Shown in pieces: positions 32,347 through 37,290 of a stretch of 64,000 nucleotides of DNA (positions are counted from its first letter, which is position 1; every line of letters starts with the position of its first letter). The translations under genes were made by a program, and so were the position numbers. The stretch comes from Mucilaginibacter rubeus (GTDB lineage Bacteria > Bacteroidota > Bacteroidia > Sphingobacteriales > Sphingobacteriaceae). A model generated the notes under the pieces. It had not been told where the DNA came from. It did no database searches and saw only the letters and a program-made list of their open reading frames with translations. The DNA lies in contig NZ_BMKD01000002.1 of the NCBI RefSeq assembly GCF_014643835.1, positions 248,001-312,000 of the forward strand. Reading direction: 5' to 3'.

Positions 32347-33792
32347 ATGCTAAAAAAAGCAATTTTCTATATATTTAATACGGCACTTTTGGTAGTGATC
32401 ATGGCCGGCTGTAAAAGTTACAAACCGGTCACGGGCCAGGAAGTGGCTGCTAATCTGCCATCGTCATTCAATAACAGTACTGATACGGTAACAATTGCGG
32501 CCTTACCAATAGGCCAGTTTTTTGCCGATCAGAGGCTCGTTAACCTGATTGACACAGCCCTTAAAGCAAACCCTGATTTGTTAAGCGCCCTGCAAAGGGT
32601 TGAAGCCGCGCGGGCCAATCTACGGTTCAACGCCTCAAAGCTTTTACCTACCATAAACCTGGCCGCCAACGCAGGGGTTGAAAAATATGGTGATTATACC
32701 CAAAACGGCGTAGGTAATTACGACACCAATTTTTCAAATAACATCAATAGCGATCAGCATATCCCCAATCCTGTACCTAACTATTTCCTGGGCTTTCAAA
32801 GCTCGTGGGAGGTTGACCTTTGGGGCAAGCTAAACAACCAGAAAAAGGCCGCCTTTGCCCGTTTCCTGGCCAGCCAAAGCGGATATCGCCTGGTAACAAC
32901 AGCCCTCACTGCCCAAATTGCAGGGCTTTATTACCAGTTACTGGCTTACGATACCGAATTAGGCATCATCAAAAAAAACATCAGGCTGCAGGAACACGCC
33001 CTGGAGATCGTTAAAATCCAAAAACTGGGTGGCCGCGCTACGGAGTTGGCTGTGCAGCAATTTGAAGCGCAGTTGGCCCGTACCAAAGGTTTGGAGTTTA
33101 CCACCCGCCAGCAGATCACCGAAACCGAAAATCAACTCCGCTTTTTAACCGGAAGTTATACCGGCATGGTAACACGGGACACCTCTATCATGAAAACGAA
33201 ACTACCGGTGGTTGTTGGTACAGGAGTTCCATCGCAAATGTTACTGAACCGCCCGGATATCCGAAGTGCGGAGCTGGAGCTTACCGCCATGAACGCGGAT
33301 ATCAAAGCGGCAAGGGCAAACTTTTTCCCTACTTTAACTTTAACTCCTTATGTTGGCTATAACAGCTTCAGGGCAAACCTGTTGTTTGATCCGGCTTCGT
33401 TTACTTATGGTATTTTAGGGGGCATCACCGCTCCGATTTTTAACCGCAAAGCAATCAAAGCCGAATATGAGCGGACTATAGCTGAACAGAAAATAGCGGT
33501 GTACAACTATCAAAAAAGTATCCTTTCCGGTTTCCAGGAAGTAAAGAATAATTTGAGCGGGATAGAGAATTTTAACCGCGCTTTTGAATTTAAACAACAG
33601 GAGCTGCAATCGCTAAACAATGCCTTGTCTGTAGCTAACGATCTGTACCTTGTTGGCCGGGCCAATTATTTAGAGATCATCACAGCCCAGCGCAGCGTAC
33701 TTGACGCCGAGCTTGAACTGGCCGGTATTAAGCGGGATATTTTCTTAAGCTCGGTTAATTTATACCAGGCTGTGGGCGGTGGTTGGAGATAA
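32347..33792 (+). CDS. Outer-membrane efflux channel lipoprotein (second system)
   Basis: A 481-residue TolC/OprM-type channel with a lipoprotein signal (VVIMAGCKSYK, Cys22). The middle repeat (LLNRPDIRSAELELTAMNADIKAARANFFPTLTL) and the C-terminal AVGGGW are the usual family marks and resemble the paralogue at 16406-17815. The N-terminal insert at about 85-135, rich in Asn and Gly, is longer than in that paralogue. The operon ends with a terminator 22 bp downstream. Confidence 0.94.
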   Translation: MLKKAIFYIFNTALLVVIMAGCKSYKPVTGQEVAANLPSSFNNSTDTVTIAALPIGQFFADQRLVNLIDTALKANPDLLSALQRVEAARANLRFNASKLLPTINLAANAGVEKYGDYTQNGVGNYDTNFSNNINSDQHIPNPVPNYFLGFQSSWEVDLWGKLNNQKKAAFARFLASQSGYRLVTTALTAQIAGLYYQLLAYDTELGIIKKNIRLQEHALEIVKIQKLGGRATELAVQQFEAQLARTKGLEFTTRQQITETENQLRFLTGSYTGMVTRDTSIMKTKLPVVVGTGVPSQMLLNRPDIRSAELELTAMNADIKAARANFFPTLTLTPYVGYNSFRANLLFDPASFTYGILGGITAPIFNRKAIKAEYERTIAEQKIAVYNYQKSILSGFQEVKNNLSGIENFNRAFEFKQQELQSLNNALSVANDLYLVGRANYLEIITAQRSVLDAELELAGIKRDIFLSSVNLYQAVGGGWR

Positions 33793-33813
33793 ATAGATAG
33801 ATAACATTAATAG

Positions 33814-33843
33814 AAAAAGGGTACTTATTTAGGTACCTTTTTT
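33814..33843 (+). terminator. Terminator of the second RND efflux operon
   Basis: An A-rich arm with GGTAC (33814-33824) pairs with GTACC plus six T residues (33833-33843), with one G-U pair. Stem followed by T-run; it lies 22 nt after the channel stop codon. Confidence 0.8.
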
Positions 33844-33883
33844 GTTTCTATGGGTCATCAAAAGCGTGGAAATGTGCGATTCC

Positions 33884-33931
33884 CCTCTTGAGAGGTTGTA
33901 GGGCGTGTTTCAGCATTTTTGCTAAACACGC
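33884..33931. repeat. Hairpin-rich non-coding element
   Basis: Two hairpins in a row: CCTCT/AGAGG (33884-33895), and GCGTGTTT paired with AAACACGC (33903-33910 with 33924-33931) around an inner AGC/GCT stem. GTGTTTC motifs recur just outside. It looks like an interspersed repeat, not a gene; no other copy is in the window. Confidence 0.45.
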
Positions 33932-34017
33932 AGCAGAAACACCCTTGCCGTCGCTCTTTTCCTGCGCGCCGCCTCTCTGCCCACAAAATTGTTGCGTATA
34001 ATCAGCAAGGCGTTTGT

Positions 34018-34082
34018 TTTGCCCCTCTGGGGCAAAGGATATTTCTATTTTTCAGCTACAAACCTTTTGCACCTCTGGTGCA
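34018..34082 (+). repeat. 65-nt double-hairpin element, copy 1
   Basis: Order: hairpin TTTGCCCC-TCT-GGGGCAAA, then GGATA, a 14-nt spacer, CTACAAACCTTTT, then hairpin TGCACC-TCT-GGTGCA. Both hairpins share CC-TCT-GG at the tip. A second copy of identical length lies at 34133-34197 in the opposite orientation. The layout resembles REP-type elements; no RAYT transposase gene is present here. Confidence 0.7.
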
Positions 34083-34132
34083 CCTGTTTTTAAGCGCGTC
34101 TAAAGTAATACCGGTCTGTTAAATAGTAAAAG

Positions 34133-34197
34133 TCCCCCAGAGGGGGAAAAGGTTTGTAGAATAGCATCCTACCCTTATCCGAACCCCAGAGGGGTTC
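34133..34197 (-). repeat. 65-nt double-hairpin element, copy 2, inverted
   Basis: Read on the minus strand: hairpin GAACCCC-TCT-GGGGTTC, GGATA, a 16-nt spacer, CTACAAACCTTTT, hairpin TCCCCC-TCT-GGGGGA. Stem bases differ from copy 1 but pairing is kept on both sides, while the linkers GGATA and CTACAAACCTTTT are identical. The 50 bp between the copies shows nothing else. Confidence 0.7.
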
Positions 34198-34431
34198 AAC
34201 TAACCTGATTACTAAATTGGCAACAGCTATTTGACCATTATTTTGCGGGTGAGCTTAAACTTTCAGGGAGGGAATTGAAAAATACACGCCACACCCGTCA
34301 CAAATCCATTACACAAATCAAATTACATCGCAATAATATTAACCAGTAGTATAAATTGCTTAATATAGTGGTTCCGGTGTTTACCAAACGAAGCACCGGT
34401 TGACTGACTAATACTTAAACAATTAACACAA

Positions 34432-37290
34432 ATGATCAAACTTTTAAAGCATGCATTGATCACTCCATCAATTGCTGTACTGGCGTTTAACGCGGTTGCC
34501 CAAACCGCCGCGCAACCAAAGCTTATTGAAAAGGTTACCCGTAAGGGAACCGAGCTGGTGATCCCCTATGAAAAATATGTATTACCTAATGGCCTTACGG
34601 TTATTTTGGCCGAAGACCACTCCGATCCGCTGGTTCATGTGGATATCACCTATCACGTAGGTTCGGCACGTGAGGAGATCGGTAAATCAGGCTTCGCCCA
34701 CTTTTTTGAGCACATGATGTTTCAGGGGTCAGATCATGTAGCCAATGGCGATCATTTTAAGATCATCACCGAAGCCGGCGGTACCCTAAACGGTTCAACT
34801 AACCGCGACCGTACCAACTATTATGAAACCGTACCCGCCAATCAGCTGGAAAAAATGCTTTGGCTGGAGTCGGACAGGATGGGCTTCCTGCTCGATGCTG
34901 TCACCCAACAAAAATTTGAGGTGCAGCGTGCAACCGTAAAAAACGAACGCGGGCAAAACTACGATAACCGCCCATACGGTTTAGTTAGCCAGTATGCATC
35001 AAAAACACTTTATCCATACGGCCACCCATATTCATGGCTTACCATTGGCTATATTGAGGAGCTGAATAAAGTAGGCGTAAACGATCTTAAAAACTTTTTC
35101 CTGAGATGGTACGGCCCTAATAATGCCACGCTAACCATTGGCGGCGATCTTAACCCAAAACAAACCCTTGCCTGGGTGAGCAAATATTTTGGCGGGATCC
35201 CAAGAGGTCCTGTGGTAAAGAATATGTCTTTACCTGCACCTGTGTTAAAGGCCGACAGGTATGTATCCTACACGGATAATTACGCCAAGTTCCCCTTGTT
35301 ATCTGTAAGCTATCCGGGCGTAAAGATCTATGATAAAGACATGTCGCCTCTTGATGCTTTATCGGCCATCATCGGCCAGGGCCGTAACTCTATCTTTTAC
35401 AAAAACTTTGTAAAAACCCGTAAGGCGGCACAGGCCACCATGAGTTCATCCAATACCGAACTGGCCGGTGAGATCAGCATGCGGGTTGTACCTTTCCCTG
35501 GTCAAACTTTAGGTGATGCAAAAAAACTGGTAGATGAATCCTTAGCCGAGTTTGAGAAAAAAGGTGTAAGTGATGATGACCTGGCCCGCTTTAAAGCCAC
35601 TGCCGAAGCCGATTATATCAACAGTTTATCGAGCGTAAGCGGTAAAGTATCTGAACTGGCGCAGGCACAAACCTTTACCGGTAACCCCAACCAAATTGGC
35701 CGCGAACTTGCTGCTATCCGGGCGGTAACCAAAGAGGATGTAATGCGCGTTTATAACCAGTACATTAAAGGTAAACCGGCGGTAATATTAAGCGTATTGC
35801 CTAAAGGCGGTAACCTGCAACCTGTAGCACCCGATAATTTTACTGTTGATACCACAGGTTACAAAGCACCGGATTATGGCTATAATGGTTTAACCTATCA
35901 CAAGCCTAAAGATAGTTTTGATCGTGCCGCAAAACCGGGCGTTGGCTCTAACCCGGCCATTAAAGTTCCGGCTATATGGTCGGCCAATACACCAAATGGC
36001 ATCAATATCATCGGTACTCAAAATAACGAGATCCCATCGGTATCTATGTCGATCTCTATTAAAGGCGGTGGTTTGTTTGCCATCAACAACCCATCAAAAG
36101 CGGGTTTGGCAGGTATTGTCGGCCGTATGATGAATGAAGAAACCCAGAAATACACTGCCGAAGATTTCAACTCCGAACTGGATAAACTGGGCAGCAGTAT
36201 CACTTTTTATGCCAGTTTAGATCAGATTGATGCTGAGGTATCGTCGCTTACCAAAAACCTGGGCAAGACAATGTCCCTGCTCGAAGAAAGGTTATATCAC
36301 CCGAAATTTACCCAGGACGCGCTCGACAGGATCAAGAAGCAAACTTTGGAAGGCTTTAAACAAGCTAAAACCCAACCTGCAGGCGTAGCCAGCACAGTTT
36401 ACAGCAAAATCCTTTATGGTACCGATAACGTACGCACTTACGCCGCGGGCGGTAATGAAGAAACTGTTGCAGGTATAACATTGCAGGATGTTCAGGACTA
36501 TTACGATAAAAACTTTTCGCCATCGTTAACCAAAATTGTTGTGGTAGGCGATGTTAGCGAGGCATCTGCAAAAAGCGCGCTCGCTTTCCTCAATACCTGG
36601 AAGGATAAAAAGGTGACCATCCCGGCTCCTGCTGAGGGTAAAACATTTGATAAAACCACTTTATACCTGGTTGATATCCCAGGCGCGGCACAATCTGAGA
36701 TCCGTATTGGGTATCTGGATAAACTAAACTATGATGCAACAGGCGATTATTATAAGCTGAACATAGCTAACTACATTTTAGGAGGCGCTTTCAACAGTCA
36801 CATCAATCTTAACCTGCGTGAGAAAAAAGGCTGGACATATGGAGCCCGTTCATCTTTCAGTTCGGGTAAATATGGCGGCGACTTCACCGCTTCGGCCGGC
36901 GTATTGGCTACGGCTACCGATAGCTCGGTGGTTGAGTTTATGAAGGAGATCACCAACTACCAAAAAACCGGGATTACACCCGAAGAATTGAAGTTCACCC
37001 AAACTTCTATCGGCCAGAGTGATGCCCGTCGTTATGAAACCAACGCCCAAAAAGCGGCGTTTTTATCGCGCATCCAGGAGTACAGCCTTAAACCTACTTT
37101 TGTTGACGAGCAAAGCAAGATACTATCGACCATTACTCCCGCCGAGATCAATGGGCTTGCTTCAAAATACCTCAATCCCGACAACATGATCATTTTGGTT
37201 GTTGGCGATAAGGCAAGGATCTATCCGGGCCTGCAAAAACTGGGCTACCCGATTGTTGAGCTTGATGCTGATGGCAAGCCAAAGCAATAA
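34432..37290 (+). CDS. M16-family zinc metallopeptidase, two-domain
   Basis: A 952-residue exported peptidase with a signal peptide at 1-24 (ends NAVAQ). The first M16 half holds the inverted zinc motif H90-F-F-E93-H94 and the distal ligand E172 in VKNERGQN. The second half (about 520-940) has the fold-typical segments (EERLYHPKFTQDALDRIKKQ, WTYGARSSFSS) but no HxxEH, so it is the usual catalytically silent partner. It degrades peptides in the periplasm; the natural substrate is unknown. Monocistronic, with a strong terminator 23 nt downstream. The 234 bp between the repeat pair and the ATG show no clear promoter element. Confidence 0.93.
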   Translation: MIKLLKHALITPSIAVLAFNAVAQTAAQPKLIEKVTRKGTELVIPYEKYVLPNGLTVILAEDHSDPLVHVDITYHVGSAREEIGKSGFAHFFEHMMFQGSDHVANGDHFKIITEAGGTLNGSTNRDRTNYYETVPANQLEKMLWLESDRMGFLLDAVTQQKFEVQRATVKNERGQNYDNRPYGLVSQYASKTLYPYGHPYSWLTIGYIEELNKVGVNDLKNFFLRWYGPNNATLTIGGDLNPKQTLAWVSKYFGGIPRGPVVKNMSLPAPVLKADRYVSYTDNYAKFPLLSVSYPGVKIYDKDMSPLDALSAIIGQGRNSIFYKNFVKTRKAAQATMSSSNTELAGEISMRVVPFPGQTLGDAKKLVDESLAEFEKKGVSDDDLARFKATAEADYINSLSSVSGKVSELAQAQTFTGNPNQIGRELAAIRAVTKEDVMRVYNQYIKGKPAVILSVLPKGGNLQPVAPDNFTVDTTGYKAPDYGYNGLTYHKPKDSFDRAAKPGVGSNPAIKVPAIWSANTPNGINIIGTQNNEIPSVSMSISIKGGGLFAINNPSKAGLAGIVGRMMNEETQKYTAEDFNSELDKLGSSITFYASLDQIDAEVSSLTKNLGKTMSLLEERLYHPKFTQDALDRIKKQTLEGFKQAKTQPAGVASTVYSKILYGTDNVRTYAAGGNEETVAGITLQDVQDYYDKNFSPSLTKIVVVGDVSEASAKSALAFLNTWKDKKVTIPAPAEGKTFDKTTLYLVDIPGAAQSEIRIGYLDKLNYDATGDYYKLNIANYILGGAFNSHINLNLREKKGWTYGARSSFSSGKYGGDFTASAGVLATATDSSVVEFMKEITNYQKTGITPEELKFTQTSIGQSDARRYETNAQKAAFLSRIQEYSLKPTFVDEQSKILSTITPAEINGLASKYLNPDNMIILVVGDKARIYPGLQKLGYPIVELDADGKPKQ

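Follow-up and report, generated by a model that had tools for sequence, protein, structure and literature searches.

An inverted pair of double hairpins in Mucilaginibacter rubeus as probable gene-less end structures of small IS200/IS605-like elements

What is the pair of inverted double hairpins found at an intergenic site of the Mucilaginibacter rubeus genome, and by which system was it generated? The pair was analyzed within a 64,000-nt stretch of contig NZ_BMKD01000002.1 (positions 248,001 to 312,000 of the forward strand; assembly GCF_014643835.1), hereafter the window, and in the genomes of relatives. We consider it likely that the repeated unit is the end structure of small IS200/IS605-like insertion sequence (IS) elements of Bacteroidota with a single subclass 1.2 HUH transposase gene (tnpA), that gene-less pairs of units are derivatives of these elements, and that the window copy is one such derivative, contained in a 280-bp scaffold probably spread by a DDE transposase.

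The two units, at 34018–34082 and, inverted, at 34133–34197, are each 65 nt long and share the order hairpin A, GGATA, spacer, CTACAAACCTTTT and hairpin B. Copy 1 reads TTTGCCCC-TCT-GGGGCAAA GGATA ... CTACAAACCTTTT GCACC-TCT-GGTGC, and copy 2, on the minus strand, reads GAACCCC-TCT-GGGGTTC GGATA ... CTACAAACCTTTT CCCCC-TCT-GGGGG; the equal length, common order and TCT loops are just as the initial annotation had described them. An inverted-repeat search recovered the arms of the units (28 nt at 86% and 21 nt at 81%), and single-strand DNA folding in unit orientation formed both hairpins (z = −4.2 and −3.0). Exact CTACAAACCTTTT occurs in the window in the two copies only; with up to two mismatches this core is alone not significant there (5 occurrences vs 3.15 expected), and CCCCTCTGGGG with at most one mismatch was found three times vs 0.55 expected, a number reached in 2 of 100 shuffles. 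A covariance model (R1), derived from an alignment of 46 units from relatives' loci (A1), recovered unit 1 at 34017–34083 on the plus strand (78.9 bits, E 1.1e-18) and unit 2 at 34132–34199 on the minus strand (72.4 bits, E 4.9e-17), with no other match below E 0.2 in the 64 kb, a recovery that is partly circular as identical copies from the nearest compared genome (G001) are among the model sequences. From sequence and fold, hairpin A of unit 1 spans 34018–34036, its core 34056–34068 and its hairpin B 34069–34081, all on the plus strand; in unit 2, on the minus strand, hairpin B spans 34134–34146, the core 34147–34159 and hairpin A 34181–34197. A 48-nt centre (34084–34131) separates the two B hairpins. 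An Rfam scan of the window gave 0 matches at the gathering score, in line with the earlier statement that no described family was recognized.

The double-hairpin units belong to a dispersed family in the same genus. A DNA search of 60 relatives returned matches in 5 genomes, all congeneric, with the window stretch identical in G001 (100% over 206 nt), and of 149 genomes of the genus, 110 had an R1 match (scoring was limited to 33 candidates per genome, which makes the copy numbers minimum values). Exact CTACAAACCTTTTGCACCTCTGGTGCA had no match in viral contigs. In A1, CTACA is invariant, 94.6% of 597 cells pair under the two-hairpin structure and both sides change at 10 of 13 pairs; cells with a double change number 117 vs 39 after shuffling, and 117 was reached in 0 of 500 shuffles. 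Because the A1 sequences are related and had been picked as hairpins, the count was repeated on 190 distinct contexts picked by CTACAAA[CG]C alone, with hairpin B read at a fixed offset. All five pairs were Watson-Crick in 127 of these 190 contexts, forming 12 different perfect stems, and across 62 distinct pairs of hairpin-B arms 190 of 310 positions paired vs 131 after shuffling (highest of 200 shuffles, 148). Wobble pairs were rare (about 2 G-U among 565 paired cells in A1, and 23 G-T vs 813 Watson-Crick pairs in the unselected set), which fits a DNA structure rather than an RNA structure. Hairpin A is unpaired beside its CC-NNN-GG tip (columns 7 and 16) in 13 of the 46 A1 units, mostly as an A-C mismatch.

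Compensatory change in the stems, proposed from the window pair, is therefore borne out by independent covariation in other copies and among transposase clades; within the window pair, however, it does not hold as stated. Almost every full element of this type in the aligned relatives has left and right stems as in the window pair, so the stems were inherited and the differences between copy 1 and copy 2 represent one old change rather than repeated compensation.

Neighbouring units are arranged in a regular manner. Among the 150 best matches listed, 36 neighbours lie less than 1 kb apart and 35 of the 36 are inverted, and with this both the copy search and the check for inverted pairing suggested by the initial annotation came out in its favor. 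Hairpin B is inside in 27 cases (the window's kind, '+-'), with spacings of 34–70 nt in 26 and of 276 nt in one; exactly 48 nt, the distance shared by the window pair, occurs ten times and is the commonest spacing between B hairpins among the listed relatives. Hairpin A is inside in eight cases, separated by 8 nt (four cases) or by 503–512 nt (four cases), and one neighbour is direct. All four of the 503–512-nt gaps contain a transposase gene, as one open frame at L062, L122 and L124 and frameshifted at L123. At another place, L148/L065 (G023:C7), units form a direct-orientation row in front of tnpA, as opposed to the usual inverted pairs.

The association of units with tnpA extends well beyond these four cases. 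In 3.3-kb loci around the best-scoring TnpA matches, R1 matches were present at 30 of 30 loci in the genus (L142–L171; E up to 0.01) and at 25 of 27 loci elsewhere in the phylum (L173–L199; E up to 0.05; L172 was left out of the model search), as well as in 17 of 20 further stretches, several of them at places already covered, or 15 of the 18 that bear tnpA. At ten same-genus control loci with class-2 (Y--NP) tnpA, including one broken gene (L071) classed by its NHIH motif, R1 matched within 1.5 kb in none (E 0.01). A generic detector that makes no use of R1 found 45 of 64 genes to have a unit, oriented as predicted, no more than 150 nt away (behind 36 genes, in front of 22 and on both sides of 13); it scored in none of 320 shuffled flanks, in one of 260 distal pieces and at one of the ten class-2 genes. 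Across the 149 genomes, strong TnpA (E up to 1e-45, a cut set by ourselves) and units occur together in 83, TnpA only in 4, units only in 27 and neither in 35 (Fisher p 5e-13, kinship ignored); when every TnpA match is counted, the corresponding numbers are 93, 9, 17 and 30. Outside the genus, plasmid NZ_CP147018.1 of Bernardetia sp. Wsw4-3y2 carries a tnpA (V9L05_RS23485; the plasmid's TnpA is WP_338791128.1) with model matches on both sides in the predicted orientation, and the more distant Persicobacter (L327) has two weaker, shorter model matches. The plasmids that best match the window's efflux gene are from Hymenobacter and Spirosoma, and all these records are the basis for assigning the family to Bacteroidota.

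By motif, profile and predicted fold, the partner is an IS200/IS605-type HUH transposase with the signature Y---Q--HH, and not a repetitive extragenic palindromic (REP)-associated tyrosine transposase (RAYT). The L062 protein is a Y1_Tnp (PF01797) with DHLH, WQ and YIANQQEHH. All five Y---Q--HH proteins tested (four from the unit group, one of the MSFV type) exceeded the NCBIfam cut-off for IS200/IS605 transposases (NF033573) and scored below that for REP-associated tyrosine transposases, with the reverse outcome for the class-2 protein tested. The predicted TnpA structure (mean pLDDT 82.7) best matched the TnpA of ISDra2 and IS608 (E from 1.6e-8), with the REP transposase 4er8 at E 4.8e-5. 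Subclass 1.2 was assigned here by the Y---Q--HH motif and not with the profiles of Quentin et al. (2018, PMC6006769); that paper describes the subclass as proteins of about 150 aa with Y---Q--HH and WQ from Cyanobacteria and Bacteroidetes, reported without REP and generally without IS200 structures. The proteins studied here agree with it in motif and size but differ in that a large group of them, whose sequences start with M-NTYTQ or similar, comes with double-hairpin ends in inverted orientation. A literature search, covering few subscription papers and preprints, found no later description of ends for subclass 1.2. Of 395 genomes sampled across the phylum, 165 had a match to a TnpA profile (E up to 1e-15), as did 89 of 170 genera; the weaker of these matches may be other kinds.

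The initial annotation had likened the units to REP sequences and bacterial interspersed mosaic elements (BIMEs) moved by RAYT, that is, class-2 TnpA, and part of the likeness stands: palindromic units arranged in inverted pairs, pairs in tandem after the transposase gene, dispersal to intergenic sites with many copies in relatives, and a conserved GTAG (= CTAC), all shared with REP/BIME/REPIN systems as presented in PMC8266576, PMC3116915 and PMC3733652. In those systems, however, the tetranucleotide is at the hairpin foot, whereas here it lies between two hairpins, 9 nt from hairpin B' and about 17–25 nt from hairpin A' (alignment A1 and window sequence), and the partner is of class 1 rather than class 2. 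A gene with the same ends at its flanks, as had been anticipated, does exist, although it encodes a Y1 (HUH) transposase of IS200/IS605 type by NCBIfam, and the absence of model matches at all ten class-2 loci speaks against RAYT as the mover. A classical REP/BIME origin is accordingly very improbable. Another group in PMC6006769 is TnpA subclass 2.6, for which 'atypical secondary structures' are given in Bacteroidetes; it is similar in phylum and in having unusual repeats beside a Y1 gene but differs by its YIH[QN]NP motif; the class-2 genes examined here had no model match.

The complete element has the order B'-A'-tnpA-A-B. At nineteen loci (18 places), picked because a core is present on either side of the gene, it measures 616–664 bp from one hairpin B to the other. 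In four pairs of elements with 88–94% identity and unlike surroundings (L162/L171, L262/L279, L273/L278 and L159/L261), homology stops at hairpin B or a few bases off, reaching further in front of L159/L261 because of a second unit; a fifth displayed pair (L142/L143) has no clean limits, and the five were picked from a list in which many other genes share longer flanks and look inherited. These limits suggest that B'-A'-tnpA-A-B behaves as a block. The core also follows the transposase. On a quick tree of 77 TnpA proteins, the letters after CTA (CTACA, CTACC or CTATA) change 8 times over 63 genes, compared with a mean of 25.9 and a minimum of 22 in 200 shuffles of core type (6 labels of another kind and 8 unlabelled genes are outside this count). 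The core detector used labels 75 of 83 loci, several of which repeat one place (77 distinct proteins in all), and also scores 12 of 332 distal pieces; it replaced a stricter detector that missed 47 of the 83. At the level of sequence comparison, the inverted order, the ends at hairpin B, the co-evolution of core and TnpA and the pairing with few G-T pairs are all demonstrated, and the assignment of the double-hairpin unit as the end structure of the subclass 1.2 TnpA group is well supported.

A mechanism may be proposed by analogy with IS608 and ISDra2, small IS200/IS605 elements whose HUH Y1 transposase has the same fold and which have hairpins near their ends. The complete element would be B'-A'-tnpA-A-B, about 620–660 bp long; each of its ends would lie at or beside a hairpin B, with the core (CTAC or CTAT, then A or C) slightly further in. 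TnpA would bind the hairpins on single-stranded DNA and nick close to CTAC/GTAG in the core or to the foot of hairpin B, in the manner of the IS608 and ISDra2 enzymes at their own hairpins, a cleavage chemistry that we infer from the TnpA fold. Unlike IS608 and ISDra2, the elements here have two hairpins per end, repeat one end in inverted orientation at the other, terminate at or beside hairpin B, and are too short, at 620–660 bp, to accommodate tnpB. Gene-less inverted pairs would be non-autonomous derivatives, with the window copy a pair of the kind arrayed behind the G068 tnpA and held in a decayed 280-bp scaffold with terminal inverted repeats (TIRs); its hairpin modules would stem from the TnpA system, and the scaffold would have been spread by a DDE (IS4-like) transposase.

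Alignment of the window copy with 15 loci of relatives, the G001 copy and 20 loci of G148, together with the terminal repeats in other genomes, delimits a non-autonomous element of about 280 bp at 33980–34259 that encloses the inverted pair and has a truncated left terminal repeat. The outer sequence common to the window pair and dispersed copies is TTTAAGTTWACCCACAAAAT ... ATTTTGTGGGTWAACTTAAA, about 280 bp apart. On the left, a remnant of the repeat (CCCACAAAATTG of TTTAAGTTWACCCACAAAATTG) remains at 33980–33991 on the plus strand, where the orthologous G148 copy (L250) ends too; on the right, the repeat (ATTTTGCGGGTGAGCTTAAA) lies at 34240–34259 on the minus strand, its G001 counterpart (C29:560893-560912) having 3 mismatches to the repeat pattern. 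Two tandem pairs stand behind the G068 tnpA (L200). Window copy 2 shares 84% identity over 82 nt with the first of their units, directly behind the gene, and window copy 1 shares 83% over 69 nt with a partner unit, a likeness that links the window pair to the G068 lineage of TnpA. The best TnpA match in G001 is not a strong one (3.4e-36; the Y---Q--HH PF01797 match of this genome is the MSFV-type L068), and the copies there thus look orphaned. As judged from these alignments, the window pair is a worn, gene-less copy of transposase end structures in a decayed element of about 280 bp.

The pair is located between an efflux outer-membrane gene (32347–33792, PF02321) and an M16 peptidase gene (34432–37290), both on the plus strand, and positions 33780–34450 contain five terminator-like sites vs 0.7 expected, three of which are hairpins of the element. 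A function in RNA, as terminators or as a structured RNA between the efflux operon and the peptidase gene, could account for these sites, but G-U/G-T pairs are rare, Rfam gave no match, and the units are dispersed and tied to tnpA. Furthermore, G018 and G014 have other, partly palindromic sequence at the same locus instead of the element. We therefore regard an RNA-level function as highly unlikely.

How the scaffold itself moved is a separate matter. Both terminal repeats were present in the 34 distinct 280-bp-type elements examined, which are of near-constant length. A sister form of about 197 bp has the order B'-A'-8 nt-A-B between CAATGKCATTAAGTTAA repeats, with 9–10 bp direct duplications (read by eye) at four of five sites. 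Duplications are exact at L043 (ACCTCTGGC), L047 (CTCAGGATG) and L051 (L040 is the L051 site in another species) and one base off at L035, with none at L111; L284 and L285, outside these five sites, are also one base off. The CAATGKCATTAAGTTAA repeat is also that of IS4-family elements of 1449–1482 bp (eight TIR pairs in G153), one copy of which (L281:225-1706, G153:C1:4894900) lies in the tip of a hairpin A with the 9-bp duplication ACCTCTGGC. TIRs weaken the case for TnpA as the mover of all dispersed copies; the 280-bp scaffold probably owes its spread to a DDE (IS4-like) transposase working via the terminal repeats, which is the least certain part of our interpretation. Two candidates for an autonomous form were ruled out, namely a 729-bp TIR pair in G126, which is a nested insertion, and a 1640-bp TIR pair in G153, which holds other open reading frames that we take to be orfA/orfB of IS3 look. 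At L255:600-1420 (G126), a 197-bp-type element with its own insert is nested in hairpin A of a 280-bp-type element.

The interior of the scaffold appears in more than one clade type. In G087, CTATA-type units were found in 15 of 15 scaffold elements chosen by terminal repeat alone, and single scaffold elements of G153, G156 and G158 have them too (G153 L303 was left unscored). In each of these four genomes a TnpA is nearest to or within the L188/L204/L211 clade (L211, L213, L307, L309), where 6 of 9 genes have the CTATA core, and none of the TnpA found there groups with L062/L142/L200 (the CTACAAACC group). In G148, CTACA units occur in 18 of 18 counted pairs, at loci chosen by similarity to such an element. 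G018 has both scaffold kinds, mixed scaffolds and both TnpA kinds, the three scaffolds of G080 have one core each, and neither core was found in the scaffolds of G128 (L311) and G074 (L315).

These results bear on whether the window copy is purely a miniature inverted-repeat transposable element (MITE), moved by a DDE transposase via its terminal repeats, with the hairpins as incidental cargo and no part for TnpA. Such a reading would explain the terminal repeats and near-constant 280-bp length, the 197-bp sister elements with their 9–10 bp duplications and a TIR in common with an IS4-family element, the direct 9/9 duplications in L244 (at another target) and L305 (at a variant of the CAGGGTCTCTCGCAGAGGACCCTG palindrome), and the scaffolds of G126, G023 and G001, which have no matching TnpA. 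Nonetheless, modules are swapped as whole units between TnpA-clade types and match the resident TnpA clade in G087, G153, G156 and G158, and a direct 9-bp duplication was detected in only 4 of 34 scaffolds; we thus consider a pure MITE unlikely. MITEs of IS4-family elements share with our elements the terminal repeats and, in the sister form, the 9–10 bp duplications, but the interior here consists of HUH-transposase end modules, with more than one clade type within one scaffold. A further possibility is that the 280-bp elements are two-enzyme chimeras, in which a DDE-type scaffold receives a plug-in pair of HUH end modules, swapped whole and tending to match the host subclass 1.2 TnpA; the HUH enzyme would act on the modules, for example by copying or excising them while the DNA is single-stranded during replication, with insertion of the product left to the DDE enzyme. 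Modules without a matching strong TnpA in G023 and G126 lower the probability of this idea, which we consider unlikely.

Several observations weigh against our preferred reading of the units as subclass 1.2 ends, secondarily carried in a DDE-spread scaffold. In the 9-nt target test, the 34 window-form elements gave 4 direct duplications (at least 8 matching), 6 inverted and 24 neither, with about 1% direct among mismatched elements. An 8-nt test of 21 elements gave 6, 6 and 9, respectively, and 17% of mismatched elements also reach 7 of 8; most window-form targets are themselves palindromes (CAGGGTCTCTCGCAGAGGACCCTG or alike), blurring the duplication test. No autonomous partner with the window-form repeat was found among the matches listed for 38 genomes. 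Modules and resident TnpA also disagree in places: the only TnpA of G023 is of the CTACAAAG kind, yet its scaffold L316 is of the CTATA type, and G126, which lacks a strong TnpA, contains scaffolds of CTATA, CTACA and mixed type. Some G148 stems are broken. Units occur without strong TnpA in 27 of the 149 genomes, including G126 (at least 33 units) and G001 (14). Conversely, R1 did not match at tnpA loci L184 and L190 of the phylum set or at L205, L217 and L219 of the 18 further tnpA stretches; 19 of the 64 genes escape the 150-nt detector, and a unit in the opposite orientation lies behind 5 genes and in front of 1. The pairs with homology limits come from different species, and rearrangement is possible. 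Lastly, five other Y---Q--HH TnpA (MSFV-type L068, L076 and L078; L077 and L086) had no units (0/5), so the units are not a property of the whole of subclass 1.2. Other palindromes (CCGTTGGTTTTAACCAACGG and the like) are found near the tnpA genes of the MSFV type.

On the reading preferred here, the double-hairpin unit is a candidate substrate for HUH transposases that occur across the phylum and have received little study. In 2018, subclass 1.2 was separated as near IS200/IS605 without IS properties, and many of its genes would here possess exact ends that are inverted and co-evolve with TnpA. A set of palindromic repeats dispersed in these genomes could then be explained as gene-less relatives of TnpA elements, and it becomes possible to test recognition, cleavage and the transition from IS to REP-like repeats.

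The surroundings of the window copy contain further repeats. Part of another dispersed palindromic repeat (GATTCCCCTCTTGAGAGG...) occupies 33860–33977, as indicated by dispersed matches to query positions 261–378 in several relatives and by comparison with the G014 orthologue; the 280-bp element seems to lie within this repeat, AGGGAGGGAATTG at about 34265–34280 apparently being the repeat's other end. The orthologous gap in G018 (L003) holds yet another palindrome (ACGACATTGCGAGGAACGAAGCAATC...), and this intergenic gap seems to collect repeats.
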